Assembly: GCA_019055375.1 (NCBI GenBank)
Contig: JAHQIW010004709.1
Location: 62,001-126,000 of the forward strand
Length of the DNA stretch: 64,000 nt
Direction of reading: 5' to 3'
DNA from: Parelaphostrongylus tenuis
Lineage: Eukaryota; Nematoda; Chromadorea; Rhabditida; Metastrongylidae
Position 1 is the stretch's first letter. Each line of letters starts with the position of its first letter. The position numbers and the translations under genes are program-made. The notes beneath the pieces were generated by a model. It did no database searches, had not been told where the DNA came from, and was given only the letters and a program-made list of their open reading frames with translations. This document shows, one piece after another, positions 1 to 57,405 of the stretch.

Positions 1-1448
1 CTTTGTTGGAGGGTAACAAAATATCGCTTGCTTAGAAAAATTGCAAAGCAAAGACCATAAGATTTTACGACACTCACTAAGTCTTCTCATTTAAATTAAA
101 CTGAACTTACATGCCTATGCAAAACTCTGTGGACTAATATTAACTGAGAGACTTACTATGAATAAAGCTATGGATGCTCACAAGATTTACTTAATCCTAT
201 GACGCATTTTAACTGAGGAATTTCTTTGCTGTGAATATGAAAGTGTTTGATCAGACAGACTGCGTGTCAATTAAGCCCTTCCACGTTTTTGAAAAAGTGA
301 AAAGAGGTCAGAATACTGCTAGTGTTCAACATATCCCATACTATCACATTCGTGTCTGCTCAAAAAGAGAACATTAACTCATAATGTCTTCCTACTTTAA
401 CATTTTAATGTCGCACATCTAGTGTGCTACGGTGCTTTCAATAATCAATTACGATTGAGGCGAGTGTCACTCAGGCACTCAGTTTAGTCTAACTGCCATG
501 GCCAATCACTCAGTTAAACTCCAATCCTCTGAGTTGCATAAATGAAAATTTTCCAGAACACTCAAATGATCTTTGACATCATTTTTCGACGAAATTTCTT
601 TGTGCGCTGATAGAATTGCTGTATGCTTTCGCTACAACAATTTATTCTTCCCATTATTTCTTAGGTGTTTTTCGTTGTTGCCCAATAAATGGACCACATT
701 GTCTACATCTTGCAGTAAAATGACTCTCAGAGTCAGAGCAGTTCATAATTTCCAACGGTTTCTTCCTGAAGTGGGGGTGGTGGTCTCGTAGCTGGTGACT
801 CAGGCTATTAGAAAGTTATCAGAAAGAAAGGAAATGGCTCGACTTTTACTCGGACGTTCTCTTGCAATCACTAAGAACGTCTCGCCCTGGCTACGGCAAA
901 CACAAAAAGATTTCATTCGGCTAGTACTGACTTTCATGAAGATGTTCAAGCAGTAATCGAAATGACACGGAATATTTGGAATGGCAATTTCTTCCATCAC
1001 GTTCAATAAAAAACTGCCATTGATTAACATTTTCCTTTCTAACACTACTGAGAAATGAGTTCGGACATATGAGTGGTACGTACATTTTAGTACTGTCTAC
1101 TAGAAAATATATACTGAGTAGTACTTAAAATCCGCATATGCATTAGAGTACTCTATCAGTGTACGTCATATTATCAAATTCACAACCAGTTCACAGAACT
1201 TTCTAAAACTATCTGCAGCAACACGCACAGTCGAAGAGACCACTTTGGACAATTGGAGCCTAGACAGTTCAGAATCACAGAGAATCCTCGGTAAGAAAAA
1301 TCATCAGGGAGAATGATTCGATAAGCGAACAAAGTATGTTGAAGAACTGCGATAAACTTCTCCATACTATAATATCAGTAGGACAAAACTTGAGAAAATG
1401 ATCTACAAGGCAAATTTCTTAAAGCTAAAGCTTTAAGCTGTAACTTCA
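1..1448. other. AT-rich sequence with no recognised feature
   Basis: I see no convincing exon, RNA gene or repeat homologous to the families elsewhere in the window. Short open frames here lack motifs and coding-like composition. Confidence 0.5.
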
Positions 1449-5899: not shown

Positions 5900-6929
5900 T
5901 TTCATAACGATGCAACACAAAGAAAACATATGTGTTTTTACCTGCGAGCAATTCTCTCCTGGCGGAAACTTTTTCTTAGATTATGAGCAACCTTTTAATT
6001 GCGTAACTTCCGACGATTCCAGCGCTATATTCAGTTGCTGAATAGACTGTTTCGGTGTAGTGTATTGGGAAAAATAAAAATTTATTTTACATGCGAGGCG
6101 CGTTTGAGTGCGCGAGCTGAGTGTCTGCCGCCCCTGGATTTGATTAGGCGTGTGTCGCGATCGAGCCATCAATCGATCACGCTAGTGAGTCATACGTGAA
6201 GTACAATTTTTGTTATTTGTATTGAGATTTTCTTGCCGAAATTCAAAACAAAACGTATGTCACTGTTAGTGCAAGAAATCTTCTACACGATCGTATGGTT
6301 TTCGTACTTTCAGCGGTGTGATAGTAAAAGCACGAGGCCGGTGAACAACATAATTTTATTCTTAGTGCTAGAGCGTTATAAAGGGTCCTTTCAAAAAAGG
6401 AGCATGTAGCGCAGTAGTCAGAGATTTAAGCTTTCAAATGACTGCCAGCACTCTCATAAGAATTTGTTGTCCAGCATAAGAGATCGTTTTTCATCAAGCG
6501 CCGTTCAATGGAAAAGTATTGCCATGTGAGTCGATCAATAGGAGAATGGGATGATTTCTCAGAAGACGTCAACTTTACTAAAAAATTGTTGATATCTACG
6601 AGAAAAATGCAAGATTATCCGAAACCGTAACCGATTTGTACAAAGTCCAACTAAGCTCGCGCTATTGAAGCGCATTCGCAAGATTATAGCTAGGATCAAA
6701 TATCGTTTGCTTGAAGACAGGTAATAATATTTATGCGTGCCTGTGAGGAAAATTACAAAAATCAGTCGGTATCGTATTCTTTTCATGACGAAAACAAGAG
6801 TTTATTATCTTGGGTTCCCGCTCGTGGATGAACCGCGCGAAGCAACGAAACGGTCTAAGTGCCACGTTTTCATTCGATTGTTTTTATAGACCCCGCTCAA
6901 AGACTATAATAAATTGATAAAATGACAGT
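5900..6929. other. No recognised feature
   Basis: AT-rich sequence. A 35-bp stretch near 6401-6435 resembles the SINE A-box region but nothing after it does. Confidence 0.45.
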
Positions 6930-7105
6930 ATGCTTGGAGCCTCTAATGAGGTGTGATATGGCACTTATACAATATTGAACAGGTTTGTTTCGCCTTTCCA
7001 GGCTCATCAGTATTACGCTATCCTTCGATTCAGCCGATACCAGGGAAATGCACCTCTACTTATAAAGATATCAACACCGAATGAAAAATCACCGCAAGTC
7101 AGGTG
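6930..7105 (-). repeat. Hammerhead-family repeat, subfamily B (minus-strand copy)
   Basis: On the minus strand it begins CACCTGACTTGC and ends near AGGCTCCAAGCAT. It is homologous over its whole length to the plus-strand copy at 7517-7705. The two copies are inverted with respect to each other and flank a SINE at 7109-7421. The ribozyme core in this copy is listed separately. Confidence 0.7.
6975..7016 (-). ncRNA. Hammerhead ribozyme-like core, intact boxes
   Basis: On the minus strand the CTGATGA box is at 7010-7004. Stem II is GCCT-GGAA-AGGC at 7003-6992, four pairs closed by a GNRA tetraloop. GAAA is at 6991-6988. These are the invariant parts of a hammerhead catalytic core. Stem III could be ACA/TGT around AACC, followed by a U. 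Stem I (GTAATA with TATTGT) can form but sits a few bases further out than ideal, so activity is uncertain. A structure-aware search or a cleavage assay would settle it. Confidence 0.65.
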
Positions 7106-7108
7106 TTT

Positions 7109-7421
7109 AAAGGATAAATGATAAAGCTCTCGGCGTTGATCATTCCCTGTGGGGTGCGCCATGCATTCGACTTCAATCTTCTTAACTTTGTTGGAGGTGG
7201 CAATTAAATGCATATTTGGCTTTTACAGTGACTCGCGGTGGCCTCCCACTGAACCGAGTCAATGCTGCTTATTTTCCCAGACAAGTCTGAGACCTGTCTG
7301 GTACCAATTTACCAAACCCGGAGGGATGGATGGCTTGGCGAGCTATGAGCTTGAGATTGAACCACTGAGCCCTTGTGCGGCACAGAGCACCTCTAACCAC
7401 TGCGCCACATGCACCTCATAG
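7109..7421 (-). repeat. Full-length SINE copy
   Basis: Antisense copy of the main SINE. The head at 7421-7330 has the A-box region (minus strand GCGCAGTGGTTAGAGGTG), and the tail at 7111-7125 has degenerate AGGATAAA-type units. It lies between two inverted hammerhead-family repeats. Confidence 0.85.
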
Positions 7422-7516
7422 TCAGATGATAATTCCCCCAAAATTTCAGTGAACAAGAGTCGAGTTCGTTGCTGATAAAATTATTCATACCTCTTCATTT
7501 ATGAAGAGGATTTTTT

Positions 7517-7705
7517 CACCTGACTCGCCAGTGATCTGTTGTTCGGCGTCGATTCCTTCATGAGTAGAGGAATATTCCTCTGGGACCGGCTGAACCGAAG
7601 GACACCGTATTATTGATGAGCTTGAAAAAGACAAAAGGTCTGCCTAGCACTGTATAAGTGCCATAGAAGACCTCATAGAAGGCTCAAAACATATTATCAT
7701 ATGGT
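7517..7705 (+). repeat. Hammerhead-family repeat, subfamily B
   Basis: It starts CACCTGACTCGCC and ends GGCTCAAAACATATTATCAT. The region equivalent to the ribozyme reads TTGATGAGC (about 7609), with C3 of the core changed to T, and AGACAAAAG in place of GACGAAAC. The core is therefore decayed. It is the inverted partner of 6930-7105. Confidence 0.65.
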
Positions 7706-8109
7706 CTGTAATATTATCTTCAAAATCTTTATCCCCATTTTTTCATCTTTCATGGCGCTCATAGCGCATTTGCTAGAGGTTTTTTTGCGAAATAGACAAG
7801 ATCGTATTCCGACTTGACCCCATGTTCCGGCAAACTAAGCCTCCATTCTCTACGGCGACAGCAAATTTATCCAGATTTGAATGGGAGATCCAAAATTTTG
7901 GCTATGAAAAAAAACGTTCTATCTTATTACATCTAGCAAATATGTATTTATTCACCTCTACGGCATCCATTGGAATCGTAGTCTTTACGCTTTATCTTTG
8001 AGCCTTTCTTCGTAAGAGCATTGAGGGTTTTGCTTGCTCTGGTCAAGCACACTACTTTGAGTGTTGAAATACGCAGCCTCCGTCAAAGCAACTGCACTTC
8101 TTTTTTTTT

Positions 8110-15375: not shown

Positions 15376-15734
15376 ATGAAAAAGAAAAACTGACTAATGC
15401 GTAACTTATGTGCCATCACTACTTCCTATTGGGAGCGTACAAATAGAAATGAACCACACTAACGATTTGTATTGATAGAAGGGTAAGTGACAATCAAGCA
15501 TGAATATATCAGATCATGTGCTGACATTTGAGACTACCCCATAGCAATTGAATCAAACGGTCTACTATGTCAAAGGAAACTGTGAGGTAAATAAGCAATA
15601 GATAAGAAATCTGTTTGCATCTTCGACGTTGCGGAGACATATCAAAGCACTAATTTTTATCATTCCGATTCGTTTCGACTGTTTTCTCAATTCCACGCTC
15701 AAGATTCAGTATAGCTAATAACTATTTCTTGAGC

Positions 15735-15840
15735 CATACATGCGGTTTGTTATGGGCATTTGTACAGCCCAATACACTTTCTTCGGCCTTGGCAGCCTCA
15801 TCAGATGGACAGGCGCTTCGGCTTTAGCCAATTCTCTAAG
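15735..15840 (-). repeat. Hammerhead-family repeat, minus-strand copy
   Basis: On the minus strand it carries the family core and the downstream TTGGGCTGTACAAATGCCC. A short plus-strand piece of the same family, GCGTATCGGGCTACACAAG, follows at about 15973. A long plus-strand copy follows at 16045-16340, giving another inverted pair. Confidence 0.65.
15767..15810 (-). ncRNA. Hammerhead ribozyme-like core with variant stem II
   Basis: Minus strand: GTCCAT (stem I 5' strand), CTGATGA (15804-15798), stem II GGC...GCC, GAAG, GTGTA, then TTGGGC (stem I 3' strand). Stem II pairs as GGC/GCC where other copies have GUC/GAC, and stem I has CCA/UGG where others have CCG/CGG. These compensatory changes support a conserved fold. 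The fourth base of the GAAA box is G, so this copy is probably inactive. Confidence 0.6.
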
Positions 15841-16044
15841 GAGAACACTTACCCCTAACATAAAGAAGGGGCAGACGTACTGTTTACACGTTTCATTGAA
15901 TGAAAATATCATTGAATGATAAGTGTTGTGTACACTCGATTGTTCTTGGCTCTTATCACTGAATTCACCATAAGCGTATCGGGCTACACAAGTGCCCAAA
16001 ACAGACCACTTGCGTGGCTTAGAAAATGATTAACAAGCTTATTA

Positions 16045-16340
16045 AGTTATGAGCGTGGTTTTAAGAAACCACTCGAAACGAAAGGAATGATATACATAAC
16101 GATACCAGACAAGGGCAATCGAGAGCAAACAGTGCAAATCGGTGATATTTCCACTTCACGGAACCTGTAAATAGCACGTTTGCACCTTCTCTATGGAGGC
16201 AGATGAGTCTCTTTGGAGAAGATTGCCTATAGACGAAAAGCCTGCGCAACTGACGAGCGTGCCAAGGACGAAACACGTGTATTAGGCTGTATAGGTGACC
16301 ATGCCGGACCACGTGCATGCTCAAAAAATAATTATCAGGC
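16045..16340 (+). repeat. Hammerhead-family repeat, nearly full unit
   Basis: It is collinear with the 318-bp unit at 20801-21118. It starts GAGCGTGGTTTTAAGAAACCACTCGAAA and passes through a diverged middle (GACAAGGGCAATCG). It reaches the ribozyme core CTGACGAG...GGACGAAACACGTGTA at 16250-16281 and ends at CATGCTCAAAAAATAATT. Confidence 0.65.
16244..16287 (+). ncRNA. Hammerhead ribozyme-like core with intact boxes, poor stem II
   Basis: CTGACGA (16250-16256) and GAAA (16270-16273) are intact, stem III is ACACGTGT and the predicted cleavage base is A16281. Stem II (GCG...GAC) keeps only its closing G-C pair, and stem I pairs at four of six positions. The core is recognisable but probably weak or inactive. 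Confidence 0.55.
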
Positions 16341-19569: not shown

Positions 19570-19852
19570 AGGTTGAAGGATAAAGCTCTCGCGTTAATCA
19601 ATGAGGGATGTGCCATGCATCCGCCTTTGATTTTTGGATTTCGTTTGAGGTGACTGAATGCATATATGGCCTTTACAATGACTGACAGTACTCTCCCGCT
19701 GAATCGAGGCAATGCTGCTTATCCTCTCAGACAAGTCTAGTACCAATTTTCAGACCGCAGAGGGATGAATGGCTTGTTAAGAAGTAAGCGCGAGGTCGAA
19801 TGACCGACCTTGTGTGGGATGCAGAGCACCTCCAACCACTGCGCACATGTTT
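19570..19852 (-). repeat. SINE copy
   Basis: Antisense copy of the main SINE, with tail side GGATAAAGCTCTC at 19578 and head side ACCACTGCGCACATG at 19836-19850. Several small internal deletions affect the middle and B-box region. Confidence 0.75.
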
Positions 19853-20590
19853 TCAGTGAGAATATGTATATATAGAAAATTTTTTGTACTAGCCGCTATC
19901 TCCAACCTGCTTCAGTTCTTTAAAAAAAGTTGATTTTGCCTTTTTTCAATGTGTTAATAGTCATTCGACTGCTTAAATCACGAAAGTCTTGATGAGGTAC
20001 TCTGTTTTGAAATTGCGCTGTTCTTACCATGTAAACCTTTTGCTTTTCTTACCTAAAATTGAATTTTGTTTCACACTCATGCATCTCTCACTAAACAAAA
20101 CTTTTTCTTCAAATTTTCAATAACCTTTCGATCGCGCAAATTCCGGGGATTTCAAATATTACCTTGGCTCTCACGAGAGAATTCCTATTGGGCCGAAACA
20201 GTCAAAAGATCATAGTCAAAAGAACATGATTTAACATGAACTTTCTGCCGGTGGAAAGCTCCGCCCATAGAAAAATCTTCAAGTGTGACACATAACTTTA
20301 TTTTTGCAGCCGCTGCGCATTAAGAAGAGTAATTCCAGAACTGAAGCACAGAGGGAAATTCCTAAAAACCAAGCTTTCAGATTACCGCCAAAATTTTAGC
20401 AGAAGCAGAAAAAAGAGCTTTTGTCAGGGGATCAAAATAGAAGGCAGTTGACGGAATCGCTCCGAGTTTACGACAGTCTTTTTTGACCTCTATTTCGAGT
20501 GCTTTGTTAAGACTACGCTCAAATTTTAACAGATTCTCTCATTATTATTTGAGCCAACTTGTCATGAGGTCTGGTAGGTGCTCTTGTCCA

Positions 20591-20633
20591 GCCCGATACA
20601 CGTGTCTCGTCCTTACAGACTCGTCAGTCGGGC
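20591..20633 (-). ncRNA. Hammerhead ribozyme-like core in array
   Basis: Minus strand: stem I GCCCGA with TCGGGC (six pairs), CTGACGA, stem II GTCT-GTAA-GGAC (GNRA loop), GAGA where GAAA is required, stem III ACACGTGT (one base altered at its start) and cleavage-site A. All helices are intact and a single substitution in the GAAA box probably inactivates it. Confidence 0.75.
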
Positions 20634-21008
20634 AGAACCTGTCGTCTTTCGATCTTTTTATAGTCAGTTCTCTCTGAAGCCCTACTCTAAACTAACTAAA
20701 CCCGACTGTAAGGAAAAAACACGTGTATCGGGCTGTACAAAAGCCTTTACCAGACCACATGACAAGCTAGCTCAAATAGTAATGGAAAATTTTACTGAAA
20801 TTTGAGCGTGGTCTTAACAAAACACTCGAAATATGGGTATAATATTTTAAAAATACCAGCCAAAGAGCAATTGGGTTTACAACGCACTGTGTTATGTAAA
20901 AATTTCACTTGGCAAAGAGTGTAAAGCATTCGTCTTTGATAATTCTCTATAGGGGAGTAGGGCTCCCGAGAGAACGGACTATAAAGAGGTCGAAAGACGA
21001 CGGATTCC

Positions 21009-21051
21009 GCTCGACTGACGAGTCTGTAAGGACAAAACACGTGTACCGGGC
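21009..21051 (+). ncRNA. Hammerhead ribozyme-like core in tandem unit 1
   Basis: CTGACGA is at 21015-21021, stem II GTCT-GTAA-GGAC at 21022-21033, AAAA replaces GAAA at 21034-21037, stem III is ACACGTGT and the predicted cleavage base is A21045. The equivalent base in the next unit is A21364, so a transcript cleaved at both would release a ~319-nt monomer. The G-to-A change at G12 should abolish activity in this copy. Confidence 0.75.
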
Positions 21052-21327
21052 TGTACAAAAGCCTTTACCAGAGTACATGACAAGTTAGCTCAAATAGTAA
21101 TGAAGTGATTTACTGGAATTTGAGCGTGGTCTTAACAAAACACTCCAAATATGGGTATAATATGATAAAAATACCAGCCAAAGAGCAATTAAGTGTACAA
21201 CACTCTGTGCTAGGTGAAAATTTAACCTGAGATAGAGTGTAAAACGTTCGTCTTTGATAACTCTCTATAGGGAGAGCAGGGCTCCCGAGAGAACTGACTA
21301 TAAAGAGATCGAAAGACGACGGGTTCC

Positions 21328-21370
21328 ACCCGATTGACGAGTCTGTAAGCACGAAACACGTGTATCGGGA
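21328..21370 (+). ncRNA. Hammerhead ribozyme-like core in tandem unit 2
   Basis: Stem I CCCGA (21329-21333) pairs with TCGGG (21365-21369). An outer helix GGGTTC (21321-21326) pairs with GAGCCC (21378-21383) across an internal loop, as in natural type I hammerheads. The core is TTGACGA (C3 changed to T), stem II GTCT-GTAA-GCAC, and intact GAAA at 21353-21356. Stem III is ACACGTGT and the predicted cleavage base is A21364. The palindromic, loopless stem III implies cleavage as a dimer. Confidence 0.75.
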
Positions 21371-21409
21371 TGCACAAGAGCCCCTACCAGACCACATGAC
21401 ATGTTGGAT

Positions 21410-22480
21410 AATCAATAATGAAGCGTCTTTTTTGACTGTTACAGCGCGATATGAAGTTATTTTCAAAATTGAGTACATCTTTGAAGTTGCTGGGATTTGT
21501 GTTTTCGAACGATTATTAGGAGATTCGCCCGAAGATTTTGTCCATTAAAAAATCCTTAGATGTTAAACAGATTATTGTTTTCACTGGTATAGCGCAACAA
21601 GCAAAGAATTTTGAAAACAAACTATAACATTGAGATTCCTGTGACTTGACCTATCGAATAACCTCTAAAATCGTAGAAAAAAGCGAAAAAACTCTTTGCT
21701 CACATGGTGCTCTAACAGGATGGAAGTGACGAAAATGAACTAAAATCATAAGCAGATCTCAGATTAATGCAGTTACGTAAGTATGATAAAACATAATTCT
21801 ATCGAAGACTTATTTATGACGGCAACGTAATCATATAAAAAATAACTCATGCTTGTCAGTGCCGTAAAGGTGTCAAACAGACACTCAAAAGAGCAGCGAA
21901 CTCTAAGAGGCCGCTCGTGACTACGAATGATCGCGATTAGAGCGCGATTGCGCAGCGCAAGGAACTCATAAGTGTTAGTGGAAATGTTTCTCTTGAACAT
22001 GCAAAAATACAGTCTTTACATTTTAGTTCTGCTTTCCTCATATCTTATTCGAGTCCTAGAAATAGCAGTTTGGAGTAAAAATCGGAAGCCAATGAACAGC
22101 GCTCAAGAACGAAGTGAATTCAGGAAGCCATGCCAGGTCATGAACGAAGAGGCATTCGTTGCAGCAGATACACACTAGGCCTGGCCTCTTTTCAACTGCG
22201 CTGGCTCGCGTCCATAAAAACTATTCACGCCGCCCCGATTGAGTTAAGTCTTAAAACTAAGTGCACTTCGAGTAAGCAGTAAGACTTAATTGCTCATATT
22301 TAACGTCTACTTTTTGGGTCCCATCTGCATTGCTTACTAACCTCTTCGGCAGCAGATCGATCTCATAACGCAATGAGGCTGCGAGCAATTTTCGTTATCT
22401 AATGATGGTTTTTTTTGCTGTGATGCTTTGTAATTTTTTTACATGGTCATATGCTCTTCACGCATATATAATTATTATGT
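21410..22480. other. No recognised gene
   Basis: An old repeat motif (CTGTTACAGCGCGATATGAAG) lies near 21438. The rest shows nothing I recognise. Confidence 0.4.
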
Positions 22481-22759: not shown

Positions 22760-23323
22760 TCAAAGTGAGAGAGAGGTAGTTTGTGGTTGAAACCTTAATC
22801 TAAATCTTTTTCGGAGTCCTGTTTTTTCACATGGCTGTCTTTCGTCCAGTGTTCTGTCCGTATTATTTAGGATAACTTGAGTGAAAAGTTTATAGTCAGC
22901 GGGCAGCAAGTAGGTTGGGCGACAATTGCCTATCTTGTAAAGGTCTACCTTTTCAAACAACAAAGCGGTCTTTCTGGCTTTCCTTTGATTGGGAACCTTG
23001 CATTCTGAGAGAAAGCGAGTAAAGAGCCGAGTCAGGGTGTTGATGAGAGGTGGCGGCAGGTTCTTCAAGTGTTCTGATCTAATCCTGTCTGGTACCGGGT
23101 GTTGTTCGTTCTTTACCGACGTTATAGCATGTGAAATATCGGAAGGGAGGACCGGTGGAGCAACATATTCATCCTCTTTCAATGTATATGGCGGTGAGAG
23201 GACATGGCTAGCGAAGAGGTCCAAGTAGTACAGGTGGTTGAATTTCTCTATTGCCCTTCTGGAAGCTGTAAGTGTCCTGTTAGGGCATCGGAGTGCAGTC
23301 ATCTTGGCCTTTTGCAAATGCAC
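22760..23323 (-). pseudogene. RTE reverse transcriptase N-terminal part (copy B)
   Basis: A 187-codon open segment contains RPNRTLTASRRAIEKFNHLY, the linker DRIRSEHLKNLPPPLINTLT, FLSECKVPNQRKARKTALLF and ILNNTDRTLDERQPCEKTG. These align with the equivalent parts of the 47432-48379 RT. It stops before the palm motifs, so it cannot encode an active enzyme. Confidence 0.85.
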
Positions 23324-24373
23324 TTCCCAGCTTCTGCAGCTTCTGTCACAACTGCTGTTCGTCTCTCTTTGAAGTCTTCTTTCATCGCTTTTATGCAGCG
23401 TTTCGCAAGTTCGGGGGTAAGGTTTCGGTTGCTTGTAGCTCGTGCAATTCCACGCTGACTTATCAGCTCGGGTGCCTGCGGTGACAAGAGTCTTTTCGTG
23501 AGTTCAGGACTCTAGGCTTTCATGGCGCTAACGTGAAGATGTTCAAGAGGTTAGTCGTACTCTTCATCGATGTTGGCGTCAACGCTATCTTCCTTGGACC
23601 GACTAATGACTTGATCGCGTTTCAACTTATAGCAGTTTTGAAATTTTATTTTCAAAAGTAGCGGCTTTCTCCCTTTTCAGCAAAAAGCGGAACGCTGCTC
23701 CGAGAAGGCGGTGGTTTGGTTTCATGTAAAACTTAGAAGCAACAACGGCATATCTTAGGCAGAACTTTCAACTCACTGAGATGTGGTCTACTTCATTATG
23801 ATACTCTCCATTAGAAGAATTTCACGTTCACCGCGGAGAGTGAGGCTTCTGTAAATGTGAGTTGCCATGGATGATTTTAGTTGTCATGGCAAACTGAGAT
23901 AACCTCTCACCGTGTTCATCCCATAGTCCGTATGCCCCAATGTGACGTTCTTCTGACGTTCTCCAACTCCAATTTCAACTCAATCTCCAATTTCAGCTCA
24001 AAAATCTCAACAATGATGTTGCAGTGCATGGTATTCTCAAGAGAGCTTTTTCAGGTCCATATAGAACGCTTCGATTTCGTCTTCGTCGTAGCTTGATGTT
24101 GGTACGTTAGCAGCGAAGATGGTCAAAGTCGGCATTGATCCAAATCGTTTCAACTGCCACAGTCCGATACGGGTTGTTAGTTGCTCAAATAAACCGATCA
24201 TACGGTGAAATTCGATTCGACGAAGACGTTATCACCGCTGACACCTTTGATATCTCATATTCCAAGAAACAGTTCTACTCCGGTGCCAACACCGTTAAAA
24301 GGATAGCGTCCTCTTGTCTCAGCTAGGCCAATGACGTCATATCTCATCCTTTTTGCTTGAATATGTAAATCTT

Positions 24374-30395: not shown

Positions 30396-30492
30396 TCTTG
30401 GTATAATTTTAGACCACACTCAAATTTCAATATATCTCACAACTGTTATTTGAGCCAACATGTCATGTGATCTATTAATGGGCTCTTGTACA

Positions 30493-30536
30493 GCCCGATA
30501 CACGTGCTTCGACATTGACAGTCTCGTCAGTTGGAC
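30493..30536 (-). ncRNA. Hammerhead ribozyme-like core, flipped stem II pairs
   Basis: Minus strand: GTCCAA, CTGACGA, stem II GAC...GTC, GAAG (last base changed from A), CACGTGTA and TCGGGC. Stem II pairs as GAC/GUC, the reverse of GUC/GAC in the 20.5-21.4 kb array, so both strands of the helix have changed together. Confidence 0.7.
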
Positions 30537-30761
30537 AGAACCCTTGACCTTTTAGTCAATCTTTTCACGATACTTTATTCCCCACACCAAGCGTAGGCGA
30601 CAACGAATAACTAACATGAGTTATAATGGAATTTGAGCATGGTCTTCAGAAAACCTTCGGAACGAACGGTATAATATATTTCACAATACCAATCAAGAAC
30701 AACTGAGTGTAGAACACTGCCGAAATCCACCTCGAAAGGATTCACTAAAAGGCGAAGTTCT

Positions 30762-30805
30762 GTCCGACTGACGAGACTCTCAAGGACGAAACAAGAGTAT
30801 CGGGC
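30762..30805 (+). ncRNA. Hammerhead ribozyme-like core, all invariant boxes present
   Basis: Stem I GTCCGA (30762-30767) pairs with TCGGGC (30800-30805), six pairs including one wobble. CTGACGA (30768-30774) and GAAA (30788-30791) are intact, with predicted cleavage after A30799. Stem II (GACTCT...AGGAC) has one A-A mismatch, and stem III is ACAAGAGT rather than the palindrome, so efficiency is doubtful. Confidence 0.7.
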
Positions 30806-30899
30806 TGTACAAGAGCCCATCAACACACCACATGACATGTTGCCTCAAATAAGAGTAACGACTTATGCATAGAGGGATCAACCTATGAGATATGAATAA

Positions 30900-33029: not shown

Positions 33030-34035
33030 ACCCTAGTTTGTTTCGGCCCATGATTTCACATGAGTGAGAAAACTTACTCGAAACTCATCCTGTGCAACCG
33101 ATATTTAGTCCAATAAGTATAGCGTTTCAGAATACGATGACAATAATACACATTTTCACCGAGGGGGCCGAAAATGTTCGATAGGACGTTCAATATTCTC
33201 GAAGGTGCAAGGCGATGTCAATAGGAAGATATTTTGACCTTTCGTGAGGTCCGTTATGGGCACTTTTACAATGCAAGACAGGTTTCCAGACCCCAGGATA
33301 TCAGGATTAATTGGATCGGAACTACGCGATTTTTTTTTCAAAAGGGGCACGATTTTGCACCCATGCTTATTCGGCATGATAATGTTACCGTTCACCTATT
33401 TTTCACTAATTTTGTCGAGAACTGAGCGAATTGAAAACTTTCGAAAAAACAGGAAAAGTTGAAATAGTGCTCGATGTGAATCTATTAACGCCACTGCGTT
33501 TGAACATATGCTAGGATTCTATAAGTACCGTGAGATTCTAAATCAGTGGCAGAACAGCGCCCCGACCAGAAAAAACCTCAGTAATGAGTTACCCTACGCT
33601 CTTAAAGATAGATCTGTTAGGAGATGTTGGAATCTGACGAGGTGCACAATACCATTACTAAGGCGACAAGTTCCTCCTGAGCAACCTCTATCCACTACAA
33701 TTGTTATGGTTGAATTATTCCCCAGGTATCACTACTCGCATGCGAGGCTCCTGTCTCTTAAAGTCTGTGCACAGCTCACAAATCGTACAGGCTTGAATGA
33801 GGCATAACTATGACAGAGCAACTCTGAAAGTATTATGCTACAGTTTATCATCGAATGACAGCCTTTATTAAGATTTAACTAATGTTTATACGCACTACAA
33901 AGAACATTTCCAGGGTTTATTATCAACCGTTTTTTTCCAGCCCCATTACGTATCACATGGTCTGGTGAATACGCCCACGTAATCTTTTAGATGAAGGAAA
34001 TCTACAAAAAATGGTTTGAAGATCAAATGAAGCTC
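33030..34035. other. No recognised feature
   Basis: An open stretch at 33508-33807 has no recognisable motif and looks like chance. Confidence 0.4.
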
Positions 34036-34040
34036 TTGTC

Positions 34041-34362
34041 ATTTAATCGTTTCTAGCGATGGTATTATGTTTCAAATATATCCCACTGATGTAGAATGAT
34101 GTGCAAAATTCTTGCGTCCATGCGGGTTTAGAACCCGCACCTCACTCTTTCCGGGAACGCGTGTTTTATCCTTCACACTACTGGCGCCCATTTTCCACAC
34201 CTGGAAGCTCAGCTGAAAGATAGATGCGCTGTAGCTTAAAAAGAGAGGTGGGCAAAATGAGCGTCAAAAGTGCAACGGATATAGCAGGTGATCCCGCAAA
34301 AAAATGAGCTTGCGGGCTCTAGGCCCACCTGACACAAAGTTTTGCACATCACCCTACATCAG
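34041..34362. repeat. tRNA-armed inverted-repeat element, copy 1
   Basis: The arms are long imperfect inverted repeats. The left inner end CTGATGTAG (34086-34094) with TGATGTGCAAAA mirrors TTTTGCACATCA and CTACATCAG (34354-34362). Each arm contains a tRNA-like T-arm: TGCGGGTTTAGAACCCGCA at 34121-34139 in the left arm, and GCGGGCTCTAGGCCCACCT in the right arm. The left arm continues outward to about 34041 (ATTTAATCGTTTCTAGCGATGG), shared with the copy at 57044. The tRNA-like parts face outward (left on minus, right on plus). No protein is encoded. Confidence 0.7.
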
Positions 34363-43094: not shown

Positions 43095-43202
43095 AGTGGT
43101 CGAGCAAATGTGCCTCAGTGGTGTAGTGGTAGAGCACGCGTCCCCGTATGGGATGGAACGTGGGCCCGATTCCCGCCTGAGGTCGTGTTTTTGCTCACCA
43201 CT
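43095..43202 (+). repeat. Solo tRNA-like element with extended terminal inverted repeats
   Basis: AGTGGTCGAGCAAA (43095-43108) is matched by TTTTTGCTCACCACT (43188-43202) as an inverted repeat just outside the acceptor stem of a tRNA-like sequence. This extends the stem by about 14 pairs. The terminal GTG..GCAAA motif is the one found at the ends of the inverted-repeat elements at 34.1, 57.1 and 62.3 kb, so this may be a single-arm relative. Confidence 0.55.
43112..43183 (+). tRNA. tRNA-like cloverleaf, apparent GTA (Tyr) anticodon, probable pseudogene
   Basis: A 72-nt cloverleaf can be drawn: acceptor GCCTCAG/CTGAGGT (seven pairs, one G-T), D arm GTGT/GCAC with AGTGGTAGA loop, anticodon arm CGTCC/GGATG with loop CCGTATG, and T arm GTGGG/CCCGC with loop CCCGATT. 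The loop would present GTA, but the base before it is C rather than the invariant T33. The T loop lacks TTC, and there is no intron as expected for nematode tRNA-Tyr. It is more likely a SINE or element-derived tRNA relic than a working gene. Confidence 0.4.
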
Positions 43203-43221: not shown

Positions 43222-43645
43222 CGATAATGGTAATGATAATGGCAGCGAAAGTAGTAGCAATATTGTAGTGATAACGATAGTGAAAGTGATAATGATGGTG
43301 ATGACAATGGTGATAATGATAGCGATAGTGATGATAGTGGTATGGATGATAGTGATAGTGATTAATGATAACGATGATGATGATTATGATAGTGGTAATG
43401 GTAATGACATACTGACAGTTATGATAGTGGCAGTGATAATAGTGATAATGGCAACAATGGTAATGATGGCAGTGATATTGATTAGTGCTAAGGATGATAA
43501 TGATGGTAGTGATAGTGACGGTGACAGTGATAGTGATAGTGACAGTAATAGTGACTGTGACGGTGATACTGGTAGTGATGCTATAGTGATAGTGACAGAG
43601 ACAGTGGTAGTGAAAGTGATGGTGATAATGATGATGATAGTGACA
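43222..43645 (+). repeat. GAT/AGT-rich low-complexity tract
   Basis: About 420 bp of imperfect GATAATGGT / GATAGTGAT triplet-phased repeats. A 129-codon frame through it encodes only low-complexity I/M/V then D/S runs and should not be taken as a gene. Confidence 0.9.
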
Positions 43646-44024: not shown

Positions 44025-44180
44025 GTTCCGAACGAATTGACTAAACCGAAAGGACCATGATATTGATGAGGCTAAAAGCGATATATGTTACCAAGCACTT
44101 CATGGGTGCCGCAACAGACCACATGATGGGCTCAAATCATATCGTCTGGGTGTAATAAATTTGAGCGAGGTATCAAAGTC
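44025..44180 (+). repeat. Diverged hammerhead-family repeat
   Basis: Blocks ACTAAACCGAAAGGACC, ATTGATGAGGCTAAAAGCG, CAGACCACATGATGGGCTCAAAT and the partner ATTTGAGCGAGG reproduce the family order, including the junction hairpin. The ribozyme core is eroded. Confidence 0.5.
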
Positions 44181-44549
44181 GATTGAAAGGTATTCAAACA
44201 GTCTTCAAAAACTCTGTAGGATCATTGCATAATTTCATAATGAGCCTAAAGAATTTTTCGAAAGTAAACAAACGAATTTTCTGAAGAAAATGAAGACAAA
44301 CTTTGAAAAGTCAAGGATTCGATGTTCATAAGTTCTGTGTTTCCAATCAACTTAAAAGAAAGACATCTGAGCTAATAACGATTTTCCATAATTGAAGGAA
44401 AACCCGCTAAAATCCTTGTAATTTTGCAAACATGTTTAGTTATTCTAGCTATATGGAATCCTAACTCTATCACATAGATACTCAATGCTATCTCGTAAGT
44501 CATTCTGCCTGAGAATCTTGCAGTTCATATTATAATATTTCTCAAAGCA

Positions 44550-46819: not shown

Positions 46820-47499
46820 TCACCTGTCGTCCCGTTGATCGTCGAGTGACTCGAGCGGGTACCAGCAACTCTTCCATTTTTCCCTATCGCGTGCAAGAGT
46901 AGCCCAGTGGGTCCTCCTTGCTCTAGGAATTCGCTGAGCATCATATCTTTCTTCCATCGCTTTCGTGAAGAAATCGGACCAACGGGTCAGTGGTCTTCCT
47001 TTAGAGCGCTTAACGTCCCGAGGAATCCAGTCGGTAACGGCTCTCGTCCATCGGTTGTCGTTGAAGCGCATCACGTGTCCGGCCACCTTATTTTCGATAT
47101 CCTGGCGTGTAGAACGGCGTCTCTGATTTTCGATCGTTGACGTAGGTCGGAACTTCGGATCCTTTCTCTCATTTGCGAGATACGAGATACTCCTAGCATC
47201 GACCTTTCGACTGCGCGTTCGATAACGGCAAGTGATCTTTCATCCTGCTTACGTAGCGACCAGGTTTCTGCTGCATACGTTAGGGCAGGGATAATTGTCG
47301 AGTCGAAAAGGTGGGCACGGAGTCGGATGTTCTTTGTCCTCTTCACTACATCTTCGATGCTCTTAAACGTTCCCCAAGCCGCTCGTTTCCTCCTGCTCAA
47401 TTCTGGGGCTAGGTCGTTCATCATGTTGATTTCACGACCTAGATAGACTGTAACTGGAGCATTCGGAGATTGTCGTTCCGTTGAGCGTGAATGGGGCAT
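46820..47499 (-). pseudogene. RTE C-terminal domain (copy A), in two frames
   Basis: The first part (47499-47071) holds LGREINMMNDLAPELSRRKR, RTKNIRLRAHLFDSTIIPAL, TYAAETWSL and ISKIRW. The second (47086-46820) starts AGHVMRFNDNRWTRAVTDW and ends ESLDDQRDDR before a stop. The order YLGxxI...AETW...RWAGHV is the usual region after the RT thumb in RTE proteins. One frameshift separates it from RT near 47460 and another splits it near 47080. Confidence 0.85.
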
Positions 47500-48379
47500 T
47501 AGAAACCCATCCGTTCCTCATGAACATTGTTTTCGTTAGATTCAGTTGAAGACCAATCTTTCCACAGGCGTTATCGAAATCAGTCAACATTCGTTCCGCT
47601 TGGCTGATGTTTGGTGTTATGAGAACGATATCGTCAGCAAAGCGAAGATGGTTTAATTGTCGACCGTCAATTTTCACTCCCATTTCGTCCCATTCTACTG
47701 TTCGCATGACGTTTTGTAGGGTGGCAGTGAATAGTTTTGGCGATATTGTATCGCCTTGTCGAACACCTCTTCTTACGTCAATGGTGATATTGTTGTAGAA
47801 TGGAGATATTTCGGTCGTGAAATCTTTATGAAGCTCACGAAGGATCATTATGTACCGAGTAGGGACGCCCTGGTTATCCAGAGCCTCTATAACCGCTTCT
47901 GTTTCCACTGAATCAAAGGCTTTCTTCAGATCGATGAAAGTGAGACAGAGTGGTTGTTTGTACTCTCGTGAAACTTCAATGAGTCTTGTAATCGTGTGGA
48001 TGTGGTCCATGGTACTAAATCCTTGTCGGAACCCTGCTTGTTCGCATGGCTGTCCTTCGTCCAGTGTTCTCTCAATCCTGTTTAGGATGACTCGAGTAAA
48101 GAGTTTATAGACAGCGGACAGCAAGCAGATTGGGCGATAATTGCCTATGTCGTGTAGGTCTCCCTTTTTGAACAACAATACGGTCTTGCTGGTTTTCCAT
48201 TGAATAGGGACCTTGCATTCTGACAGGTAGCGAGTGAAGAGCCGAGCCAGGGTGTTGATGAAAACTAGCGGCAGGTTCTTCAGATGTTCTGGTCTGATCC
48301 TGTCTGGACCGCGTGTTGTTCTGTTCTTCACCGACGATATAGCATGTCGGATTCGGAAGGAGGACCGGTGGAACGACAT
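47432..48379 (-). pseudogene. RTE reverse transcriptase domain (copy A)
   Basis: A 315-codon open stretch contains all the main RT blocks: the fingers GNYRPICLLSAVYKLFTRVI, EQAGFRQGFSTMDHI, palm motif A FIDLKKAFDSVE with its catalytic Asp, GVRQGDTISPKLF, and motif C RFADDIVLI with the two catalytic Asp residues, then LNLTKTMFM. The domain itself is uninterrupted and the catalytic residues are present. The upstream endonuclease and downstream C-terminus are in other frames, so the polyprotein is dead. It would have carried out target-primed reverse transcription on the element's own RNA. Confidence 0.92.
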
Positions 48380-48618
48380 ATTCTTCCTCTTTCAATTTAT
48401 ATGACGGTAAGAGGCATGGCTAGCGAAGAGATTCGAGTAGTATTGGTGGATGATTTTCTCCATAGCCCTTCTCGAAGCTGTAAGTGTCCCGTCAGGGTAT
48501 CGGAGTGCAATCATCTTGGTCTTATAGTTGGCGAAGCCTCGCTGGGCTTTGCGAATGCTCTTCCCAGCTTCTGCAGCTTCTGCCATAACTGCTGCTCTTC
48601 TTTCTTTAAGGTCTTCTT

Positions 48619-49143
48619 TTATCGCTTCTCTGCATCGTTTCGCAAGTTCGACGTAAGGTTTCGGTTGCCTGCAGCTCGTGCGATTCCACGTTGATGTATC
48701 AGCTCGAGTGTCTGCGGCGACAAGCGTCTCTTCGTGACCTTAGGACTCTCAGCTTTTATAGCGCTAGCGTGAAGATATTCAACGAGTCGATTGTATTCTT
48801 TGTCGATGTTGTCGATAACGGTATCTTCCCAGGAGCCGACTAATGATTTGAACACATCCCAGTTTATGGTAGTTCTGGGACTTCGTTGTTTGAATTTAGC
48901 GGCTTTCTCTCCTCTTCTCGAAAATCGGAACGTTGCGCTAAGAAAGCGATGGTCTGATCCCGTGTAGAACTTAGGAACAACAGCGACATTGGTCAGGCAA
49001 AACTTTCCATTTACTATGATGTGATTTATTTTGTTGTGGTACTCTCCATTGGGAGACTCCCACGTCCATCGCTGAGAAAGAGGCTTTTGGAATTTCGAGT
49101 TACCATGGATGGTTTGAGTCGTCATGATAAACTCAGATGGCAT
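48619..49143 (-). pseudogene. RTE endonuclease C-terminal part and linker (copy A)
   Basis: It contains WTWESPNGEYHNKINHIIVN (the W.SP.G....IDHI block) and TGSDHRFLSATFRF, the SDH catalytic motif of APE-like endonucleases. The linker to RT follows (NWDVFKSLVGSWEDTV, ELIHQRGIARAAGN). It is separated from the N-terminal endonuclease fragment by a frame break between about 49370 and 49143. Confidence 0.85.
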
Positions 49144-49370
49144 CTCACCCTGTTCGTTCTATTCTAGTCCGTGGGTCATTATGTGGCGTTCTTTAGACGT
49201 TCTTCTAGGTCCAATTTTTGCGCTAAAATCTCCGACAATGACCTTGAAGAATGTATGATCTTCTCTGGAGAATTTTTCGAAGTTCATATAAAACGCTTCG
49301 ACTCGTCTTCATCATAGCTTGACGTTGGTGCATAAGCAACGAGGATGGTCAAAGCCGGCATAGAAACACA

Positions 49371-49655
49371 TCATTTCAACCGTAATTGTCCGATACGGGT
49401 TGTCAGTTGCTCAAACGAATCAATGCTCACGGTCAAAGTCGATTTGACGAGGATGCCAACGCCACCGACACCTCTGCGATCGCATGTTCCAAGAAACAGT
49501 TCTTCTCCGGTGTCATAGACAGCGTGAAAAGGATGGCGCCTTCTCGTCTCAGCCAGGCCAATGACGTCGTACCTTATTCTTCTTGCTTGAATCAATAGAT
49601 CTTCTACAGCGGATTCGTGAGCAAAGATTCTTGCGCTGTATGTACAGATCGTCAT
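49371..49655 (-). pseudogene. RTE endonuclease N-terminal part (copy A)
   Basis: It begins MTICTYSARIFAHESAVEDL (TYNAR motif with Asn changed to Ser). IRYDVIGLAETRRRHPF follows with the catalytic Glu, then the glycine-rich RRGVGGVGILVKSTL. This is the N-terminal half of an APE-type endonuclease that nicks target DNA. The Asn-to-Ser change would impair metal or active-site geometry. Confidence 0.85.
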
Positions 49656-49699
49656 TTTAGTCCATTTCGATCTTGGCAGCCTAGTTCGGCCCTGAGATT

Positions 49700-50020
49700 T
49701 TAGCAGCCTCTCCGTACTCGTCCTACCTGTCGCTGCCGTACCAGGGGCTCTTTCGGGGTCAGAGTATGAGGCCCATAATTATTACTGTTTTTGGCATTTT
49801 GATATCCAACGTATAGCTTGCTAGGATCTAAACGTGACAGCTGGGTACTCACGAGTAGCTTGCCAGTCTCCCTCGGAGGAGCGGGAGGGCTTATTTGTTG
49901 GGGACGACTCCTAACCGCCTCCCATATACTTCCCAGCAGCTTGATTGCAGGCTTTTGGCCGACTTGACTCGTAGAAATAGAGTTTTTGTCAAGTCGGCGC
50001 TGCAGAAGCAGGGAGCTCAT
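49700..50020 (-). pseudogene. RTE N-terminal extension / ORF1-like (copy A)
   Basis: A 106-codon frame begins MSSLLLQRRLDKNS, continues through SRPQQISPPAPPRETGKLLV and contains YVGYQNAKNSNNYGPHTLTP and KEPLVRQRQVGR. The last two are conserved in copy B (YIGYQNSRNSNN...KEPLAQQRWVGR), so this region was translated. In copy B it is in frame with the endonuclease. Here the frame ends GRVRRGC just before it. The function is unknown; some RTE elements have a short first ORF here. Confidence 0.65.
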
Positions 50021-50416
50021 CCCCTGAACCCACCTGCGTCTCTGGAAAGCACACGGTCGCTTTTGGTTCGCGTTTTATTCCCCTATTCGCCACCTGGGGA
50101 CGCACCACGTGCCATCGCGACTAATCGGGCGGGATCCCTCAAAGAGGGAGGTCCGTGGTTCACTGTAATACCTCCATATAAATCAATGCACTTGACTAAT
50201 TGCCAAAGTCAGCATAATTCCGTAATAAACCAATGTTTTTCTCTAGACAAAACGCACATATCTAAACCAAAATCATATTGACCAAAAGAAAGTTTTTTCT
50301 ATCAAAATAATACGAGAATTCCAAAAATTTTCTCAAAACGGCAAAAAACCTTAACCAAATAGCGAAAATAGCGTATTTTGCTCTGCGCATCAATTTCCAT
50401 ACCGTTCCTTAGGGGT

Positions 50417-57043: not shown

Positions 57044-57235
57044 ATTTAACCGCTTTTAGCGGTGGTATAATGTCCTAAATATATCTATTGATAGAACGTG
57101 ATGTGCAAAACTTTCGCATCAATAGGGACTAGAACCCGTATATCACTCAATCCGGTAGCAGGTACTGTATCCGTTACCCGGATAGAGTGAAGTGCTGGTT
57201 CTAATCCCGCCTGATGTGAAAGTTCTGCACATCAC
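57044..57235. repeat. tRNA-armed inverted-repeat element, copy 3 (compact)
   Basis: It begins with the outer motif ATTTAACCGCTTTTAGCGGTGG shared with copy 1, then GTGATGTGCAAAACTTTCGCAT. The inverted partner is ATGTGAAAGTTCTGCACATCAC (about 57209-57230). The tRNA-like T-arm GGTTCTAATCCC is at 57193-57204, and the mirrored GGGACTAGAACCC is at 57126-57138. There is almost no centre between the arms. Confidence 0.7.
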
Positions 57236-57405
57236 TTCCTAATTTATTATTCGGCGGCGATCCTCTTATAGAAGAGTTTAGCCGAGGGAGATCGGCTGAA
57301 CCGAAAAAAGACTGTGCTAGTGAGAAGTCTTGGAGGACGAAGCAAGCGTCTATCAAACACTTATCAGACCTCATTACAGCTCAAGACATTTTATATCATT
57401 TTCGA
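57236..57405 (+). repeat. Hammerhead-family repeat, subfamily B, degenerate
   Basis: Homologous to 7517-7705 (ATTCGGCGGCGATCCTCTTATAG, GATCGGCTGAACCGAA, CAGACCTCATTACAGCTCAAGACAT). The core reads CTAGTGAGAAGTCTTGGAGGACGAAGC, with a strong stem II (GTCTTGGAGGAC) but a scrambled CUGAUGA box. It directly abuts the tRNA-armed element. Confidence 0.6.

Follow-up and report, generated by a model that had tools for sequence, protein, structure and literature searches.

The hammerhead-bearing repeat at 20.5 kb in the window, the stretch of 64,000 nucleotides of Parelaphostrongylus tenuis DNA analysed here, is in all likelihood a decayed insertion of an abundant family of metazoan-type non-LTR retrozymes, laid down by Penelope-type priming on both target strands. 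A first-pass annotation had placed a plain tandem array at 20493..21406. This has to be redrawn: the insertion, here called element A, comprises two head-to-head arms together with a target duplication, the inverted partial unit having been overlooked. Because an exact 12-bp repeat adjoins both ends of the homology, the limits of the element are set at 20488-21424 (937 bp), with the order inverted partial unit, then direct units. The 318-bp period itself is borne out by TRF (2.2 copies, 87% matches, 20706-21405), and the direct copies share 86-88% identity at offsets of 318 and 319. The inverted copy aligns over 211 nt at 81% identity (20477-20687 against 20955-21165). The G+C content of the insert is 0.42.

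The units do contain the parts of a hammerhead ribozyme (HHR): CUGACGA, a short stem II closed by a UGUAAG loop, ACACGUGU, GUA and CCCGA/UCGGG. An outer GGGUUC/GAGCCC helix had also been proposed, and is found in the copy at 21328. The claim of a full core in each unit goes too far, since the first direct unit (p1) is without CUGANGA and the copies at 21009 and 21328 are mutated. Every HHR copy examined in the window is damaged; in hammerhead core numbering the lesions in element A are A14, G12 and C3. A search with the Rfam hammerhead family (RF00163, gathering score 34 bits), suggested as a check on the original reading, has a divided outcome. In the whole window there is no match of any Rfam family at gathering, the RF00163 matches scoring 27.1, 20.8 and 18.6 bits in element A and 16.6 bits at 16245-16287, whilst the same genome holds matches above the threshold. 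The highest-scoring copy of the window lies on the minus strand (20633-20591), within the inverted unit of element A. At a relaxed threshold no RF00163 match was obtained at 30.2-31.1 kb, the region of element C.

Element A has relatives nearby. When the window was searched with a natural unit in triplicate, six matches were significant (E 1.5e-14 to 4.6e-189; a seventh, at E 0.77, is left out of the count). They fall in three loci, A at 20.5 kb, B at 15.7 kb and C at 30.4 kb, and in all three the minus arm precedes the plus arm. A profile built from the arms of these three adds loci D, E, F and G. In element D (6.9-7.7 kb) a minus arm again precedes a plus arm, and the two align with each other. 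There are thus seven family loci in the window, of which four (A-D) are two-armed, all of them head-to-head and none tail-to-tail (Table 1). None of 21 decoys (one reversed, 15 Markov and five block-shuffled) gave a match, nor did the refined profile against the reversed window. Target-site duplications (TSDs) are not visible at elements B, C and D. The minus arm of B (15658-15957) and the plus arm of C (30619-30858) each start and end within about 10 bases of one unit position, which may reflect one lap round a circle, or chance, as this concerns two of about eight arms. Some 370 bp of unrelated DNA (7122-7494), part of which resembles by eye a stretch near 19800, separates the arms of element D and is possibly a nested insertion. 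Just upstream of fragment F, at 57098-57235, a MITE-like inverted repeat was noted by eye.

Table 1. Retrozyme-family features of the window, in window coordinates.
Feature	Coordinates	Strand	Basis or remark
Element A, left TSD GTCTTTTTTGAC	20476..20487	.	exact 12-bp repeat adjoining the element
Element A, minus arm, inverted partial unit with tail	20488..20688	-	
Element A, terminal hairpin of minus arm	20511..20554	-	alignment, pairs counted
Element A, HHR of minus arm, A14 changed	20591..20633	-	RF00163 27.1 bits, E 0.00041, below gathering
Element A, first direct unit p1	20704..21023	+	begins within the HHR, at ~20704
Element A, terminal hairpin of p1, GCUCAAAU..AUUUGAGC	20768..20811	+	fold and pairing counts
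Element A, HHR p2, G12 changed	21009..21051	+	RF00163 20.8 bits, E 0.053, below gathering
Element A, second direct repeat period	21024..21341	+	
Element A, HHR p3, C3 changed and stem II mismatch	21328..21371	+	RF00163 18.6 bits, E 0.27, below gathering
Element A, third direct unit, terminal part	21342..21424	+	right end in hairpin region (site 1)
Element A, right TSD GTCTTTTTTGAC	21425..21436	.	exact 12-bp repeat
Element B, minus arm with tail	15658..15957	-	about one unit
Element B, plus arm	15970..16337	+	HHR at 16245-16287 with unaltered core letters but damaged stems
Element C, minus arm	30408..30554	-	outer end between the two end sites
Element C, plus arm	30619..30858	+	internally deleted
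Element D, minus arm with tail	6857..7121	-	
Element D, plus arm	7495..7700	+	right end uncertain, 7700-7720
Element E, fragment	33230..33285	-	
Element G, single arm with tail	44047..44193	+	
Element F, single arm	57307..57397	+	end near site 1

The family extends well beyond the window. In the genome assembly (481,506,261 bases), 20 of the 31 RF00163 matches listed exceed gathering, the best of those listed reaching 45.8 bits; these counts apply to the 31 matches listed, 74 of 119,811 candidates having been scored, and the 20 include a mirror duplicate (L003 and L004) and the two arms of one element (L005 and L006). The above-gathering matches were found again on the fetched loci. The profile made from the arms in the window matches all of the first eight loci fetched (weakest L002, at 4.4e-4), and an extended profile that includes arms from five loci matches all 31. 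Among the fetched loci there is a subfamily of near-alike units of 283-287 nt, and L016 carries four matches in direct tandem with a period of ~285. In a sample of 20 stretches of 10 kb, at coordinates fixed beforehand on contigs bearing a listed HHR match, 12 contain a profile match (36 matches in 19 clusters; none in the reversed decoy). If this sample is representative, family loci number in the tens of thousands, a figure which the choice of contigs may bias upward. The HHR pattern returned no match in IMG/VR and none in GTDB genomes.

These relatives sustain the retrozyme-like reading first given to the repeat: they include intact type I HHRs above gathering, and the unit is short, A+T-rich and partly tandem. 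Several attributes of metazoan non-LTR retrozymes, namely a non-coding repeat of ~170-400 bp that also occurs in tandem, with a type I HHR and a G+C content below ~50%, are found here, and the TSDs, which are to exceed 4 bp when present, measure 9-15 bp in 11/25 elements. Two side observations concern the fetched loci. On contig C821, L003 and L004 represent one locus present twice in opposite orientation, ~19 kb apart, either through an inverted duplication or as an assembly artefact. Sub-gathering matches to the microRNA families mir-1641 and MIR821 lie on head-to-head junctions (L007 1560-1657, L008 2728-2938), and palindromes of this kind might be taken for precursors of microRNAs.

Conservation within the unit is concentrated in two modules. 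When the arms of B and C are compared with the unit of A, identical cells amount to 222/301 in the HHR region and 106/131 between the end sites, against 416/720 elsewhere. Across the genome set the family has a type I HHR core and three covarying stems. In 34 distinct copies, 92.9% of 468 cells are paired (25-40% when the alignment is slid). Both sides of a pair are changed in 18 cells, a count reached by 0/500 shuffles, and across five measures the shuffles were as high 0/500 times on three and 1/500 times on two; the loci behind these copies were picked by HHR score. The second pair of stem III is UA in 14 of these copies and CG in 13, and the CUGANGA..GAAA core, sought by regular expression, is intact in 23/34. 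A chance origin of the motif is rejected on the E-values of the profile, the decoys without a match and the HHR covariation.

The copies of the window give a fainter picture of the same ribozyme. The seven usable ones have 77.8% of 126 cells paired (20-49% when slid), 352/500 shuffles attain as many pairs with both partners altered, a weak control, and RNAalifold returns an unfavourable covariation term (+0.92) and prefers another helix over stem III. Folded singly, none of the seven forms a whole HHR at minimum energy (z -2.65 to +1.59), and two are less stable than most of their shuffles. The second pair of stem II, among 11 copies, is UA in four, AU, CG and GC in one each, and unpaired in four.

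The second module is the region between the end sites, which forms a hairpin in the A-C subfamily. In element A the hairpin GCUCAAAU..AUUUGAGC (20764-20812 with its margins) folds with a z of -3.89, and 0/200 shuffles are equally stable. In six copies taken from elements A-C, 92.3% of 78 cells are paired, as against 22-42% in the slid control; 3/13 pairs are changed on both sides, a count matched by 155/500 shuffles. In the other subfamily, three copies of the start region were folded singly with their flanks, and the expected hairpin appears in L003m alone; L005m and L007p fold otherwise.

The anatomy of the insertions was followed in 29 elements, obtained from 31 seeds by removing L004, the mirror of L003, and L006, part of the same element as L005. 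The head-to-head arrangement, in which the minus arm comes first and the plus arm second, occurs in 23/29 of these HHR-seeded elements, and the other six (L001, L009, L015, L016, L018 and L024) have a single orientation. A plus arm followed by a minus arm within 500 nt is found at L013, L017, L028 and L029, each of which has minus then plus as well. In the fixed-coordinate sample, seven of the 19 clusters contain minus-then-plus and three contain plus-then-minus, one of them solely the latter. Megablast of the terminal 500 nt of each locus revealed no shared flanks except at L028, a locus that terminates inside its element.

The outer ends of the arms are not scattered. In unit coordinates they fall mostly into two groups, at ~84-103 and ~138-147, the older copies deviating more. 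Among the two-armed loci called by rule, 19/20 have one end in each group, where 10 would be expected if the ends were independent (binomial P 2e-5, for end classes of 60-115 and 120-155 that were fixed after inspection of the data). Each end site is used once in 24/26 callable elements (23/25 without C); in this tally L011, L021 and A-D were added by hand, and C, whose end lies between the sites, was counted as tailed. L021 has two tails. The tally covers the elements other than L030, where the ends are unclear, and the six seeds of single orientation.

Positions relative to the HHR cut come from 12 loci that are two-armed, fetched and bounded by a flank repeat of at least 8, which was trimmed (L031 is included). 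Site 1 lies at +33..47 past the cut in 11/12 of these duplication-defined loci, the exception being L013 (+16). For site 2 the range is +87..95, again in 11/12, and the exception is L031 (+101); when flank repeats of at least 9 are demanded, 8/9 loci fall in the range of site 1 and 9/9 in that of site 2. The distance from site 1 to site 2, which constitutes the tail, is ~43-62 nt in 11/12 loci. A palindromic or fold-back DNA transposon of MITE type, with long terminal inverted repeats and an HHR-like motif arising by chance, would account for the resemblance of the arms to such repeats and for the target duplications, but it is rejected as exceedingly improbable, given that the two outer ends differ in sequence in 11/12 loci, one at site 1 and the other 43-62 nt further, that the arms hold a variable and sometimes multiple number of units in register, and that the HHR covaries strongly.

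Exact flank repeats of at least 9 bp (9-15 bp) bound 11/25 elements, compared with 9/600 mismatched pairs of flanks; at the remaining 14/25 no flank repeat of at least 9 was found. This test comprised the elements other than L001, L003, L009, L011, L015, L018, L021 and L030. At L005, for example, a 12-bp repeat is found at 1204 and 1586. Taken together, head-to-head arms, target duplications and two end sites point to insertion of the Penelope type.

The inner parts of the arms bear on the template. In 15/21 two-armed loci no more than 12 bases separate the arms, or there is a slight overlap. Run-off on linear monomers should gather the inner ends at the HHR cut; by inspection they do not cluster there, save at L013 (52) and L029 (51). 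The arms span a variable number of units, sometimes several in register, and such arms run across HHR cut sites, which implies uncleaved, multimeric or circular templates. The closest relative of a segment lies in its own locus in only 12/43 cases; the two arms of a locus show no preference for each other as nearest relatives, which leaves the idea of one RNA template per insertion unsupported.

Penelope-like elements (PLEs) offer close parallels to this anatomy. According to the published description of rotifer PLEs, inserts consist of direct pseudo-LTRs (pLTRs) with an adjacent inverted pLTR and a TSD of 8-10 bp, one inverted pLTR may carry a 31-bp tail, and the head-to-head arrangement is the commonest (PMC3846280). 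For a purified PLE of Anolis, PAc, it is reported that both target strands are cut and extended, and that synthesis starts internally at two adjacent sites which bound the tail (PMC11167929). The commonest start, in a stem-loop, is given there as 111-118 nt into the ORF and the HHR cut as 26 nt into the ORF, which places the PAc start at +85..92 past the cut, compared with +87..95 for site 2 in 11/12 loci here. On these accounts the present family shares with PLEs an inverted partial copy in head-to-head orientation, a TSD of ~10 bp, an optional tail on one arm, and an HHR lying upstream of a start region for reverse transcription in a stem-loop. It differs, on the same accounts, in that the unit of ~284-318 nt has no ORF and stands in direct tandem at some loci, in that the tail is longer (~43-62 nt, against 30-40 in PLEs), and in that each start site is used once per insertion, as counted above. 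Frangieh et al. (2024) report no strand difference in start sites (PMC11167929); the pattern of one start at each site is not predicted by that assay, and goes beyond it.

These parallels, the start of PAc among them, lead us to read the insertions as retrozyme RNAs inserted in the manner of PLEs, and a course of events can be proposed. The RNA unit, of ~284-318 nt, would carry a type I HHR followed by a downstream region, often a hairpin, that starts reverse transcription. Transcripts would cleave themselves at the HHR and be circularised or kept as multimers. A reverse transcriptase/endonuclease of Penelope type, the presumed helper, would act in trans and cut the two target strands some 12 bp apart. 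Each of the cut strands would then prime cDNA synthesis, one at site 1 and the other at site 2, 43-62 nt downstream, leaving what in PLEs is called the tail. The two cDNAs, some of them longer than one lap, would be joined in the middle of the insertion to yield a head-to-head insert flanked by target duplications. We lean, by a small measure, towards the wider proposition that animal retrozymes are minimal parasites of Penelope elements, circular and made up of an HHR and a Penelope start region, and that the two PLE subunits may each start once, at one site per target strand, to give one short and one tailed end.

A different route to head-to-head inserts is the self-priming of a single cDNA, rather than priming on both target strands. 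Arkhipova et al. (2013) invoked self-priming on an antisense template for head-to-head PLEs (PMC3846280). We regard this route as unlikely here, for two distinct outer-end sites that serve about once each in an insertion are more simply accommodated by two primed starts, and PAc is reported to extend both strands in vitro (PMC11167929).

It could also be that the units are fragments of the pLTRs of an autonomous PLE, the head-to-head inserts being copies of that PLE without its ORF. The HHR, the start region and the tail resemble those of PAc in order and spacing, and solo pLTRs as well as inserts mobilised in trans are on record for Penelope (PMC3846280). Direct tandem units leave no space for an ORF, however, as at L016 with its four matches at a period of ~285. 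Nor was any PLE coding remnant found in the ORFs scanned, a scan that covers little. Pfam scans of 24 ORFs (4, 10 and 10) returned RVT_1, a weak Exo_endo_phos, a Pao peptidase and two weak, sub-threshold matches, with no GIY-YIG domain and no PLE coding remnant; a regular-expression search for GIY-YIG across the window found none, and in the sampled DNA no PLE remnant was seen in the 10 ORFs scanned out of 27 of at least 150 aa. An origin as pLTR fragments appears decidedly unlikely.

LINE twin priming, in which a LINE would mobilise the retrozyme RNA and the second target strand would prime at a random internal place to give an inverted arm, is less probable again. Twin priming yields 5' inversions with TSDs of similar size, and a LINE-type reverse transcriptase is encoded in the window (RVT_1, E 4e-34, 47432-48391, minus strand). 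Random second priming would nevertheless scatter the second end, which is observed at +87..95 in 11/12 loci and at +101 in one, and the other outer end is likewise clustered, at +33..47 in 11/12. Priming of both target strands by a Penelope-type enzyme is the reading retained here.

The comparison with known retrozymes places the family in a wider setting. Cervera and de la Peña (2020) leave the helper enzyme of metazoan retrozymes open, with PLEs as a strong candidate on circumstantial grounds (PMC7229834). Metazoan retrozymes are described there as tandem copies, whereas those examined here are head-to-head with two preferred ends; the terms 'inverted' and 'nematod' are absent from the main text of that paper. 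HHRs of amphibian satellites (newt and axolotl) act as dimers according to the same text, and the A, B and C copies resemble those HHRs in their short palindromic stem III. In the subfamily of L001-L031, by contrast, the palindromic stem III is longer (many copies read AUAGGCGCCUAU or ACAGGCGCCUGU), and part of the copies score above gathering. The Sm-alpha and W elements of schistosomes are likewise short repeats with HHRs in a worm genome. No head-to-head insertions of retrozymes and no retrozymes of nematodes were found in the literature searched, which lay mostly outside subscription journals. Retrozymes as such are known, and so are PLEs; no description was found in that literature of a retrozyme family whose insertions are head-to-head in the PLE manner and follow a rule of one short and one tailed end.

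The marks of PLEs carried by these insertions (a partial copy in inverted orientation, a tail, and a start as far from the HHR cut as in a purified PLE) make the question of the retrozyme helper directly testable, by computation on any genome with retrozymes as well as in vitro with a protein of PAc type. If general, the rule of one short and one tailed end would constrain how PLEs coordinate the two strands, a matter left open in the study of PAc (PMC11167929). Were retrozymes indeed minimal Penelope parasites, and were the sample to hold, a genome with tens of thousands of copies would amount to a natural assay of PLE insertion.

Several other features of the window were recorded. The RVT_1 domain noted above belongs to a LINE-like element at 46820-50074 (minus strand), with a weak Exo_endo_phos match at 49371-49778 and open pieces nearby; it presumably resembles the LINEs of strongylid nematodes. 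An open stretch at 22760-23503 (minus strand), without a Pfam match, repeats by eye part of this LINE (compare 47432-48739) and is probably an older copy of it. ARAGORN calls a tRNA-Ser(GGA) at 34113-34187 (minus strand) and a tRNA-Tyr(GTA) at 43112-43184 (plus strand); neither reaches the Rfam gathering score, and they may thus be pseudogenes or the heads of SINEs. A long microsatellite of TAGTGA type occupies 43266-43643.
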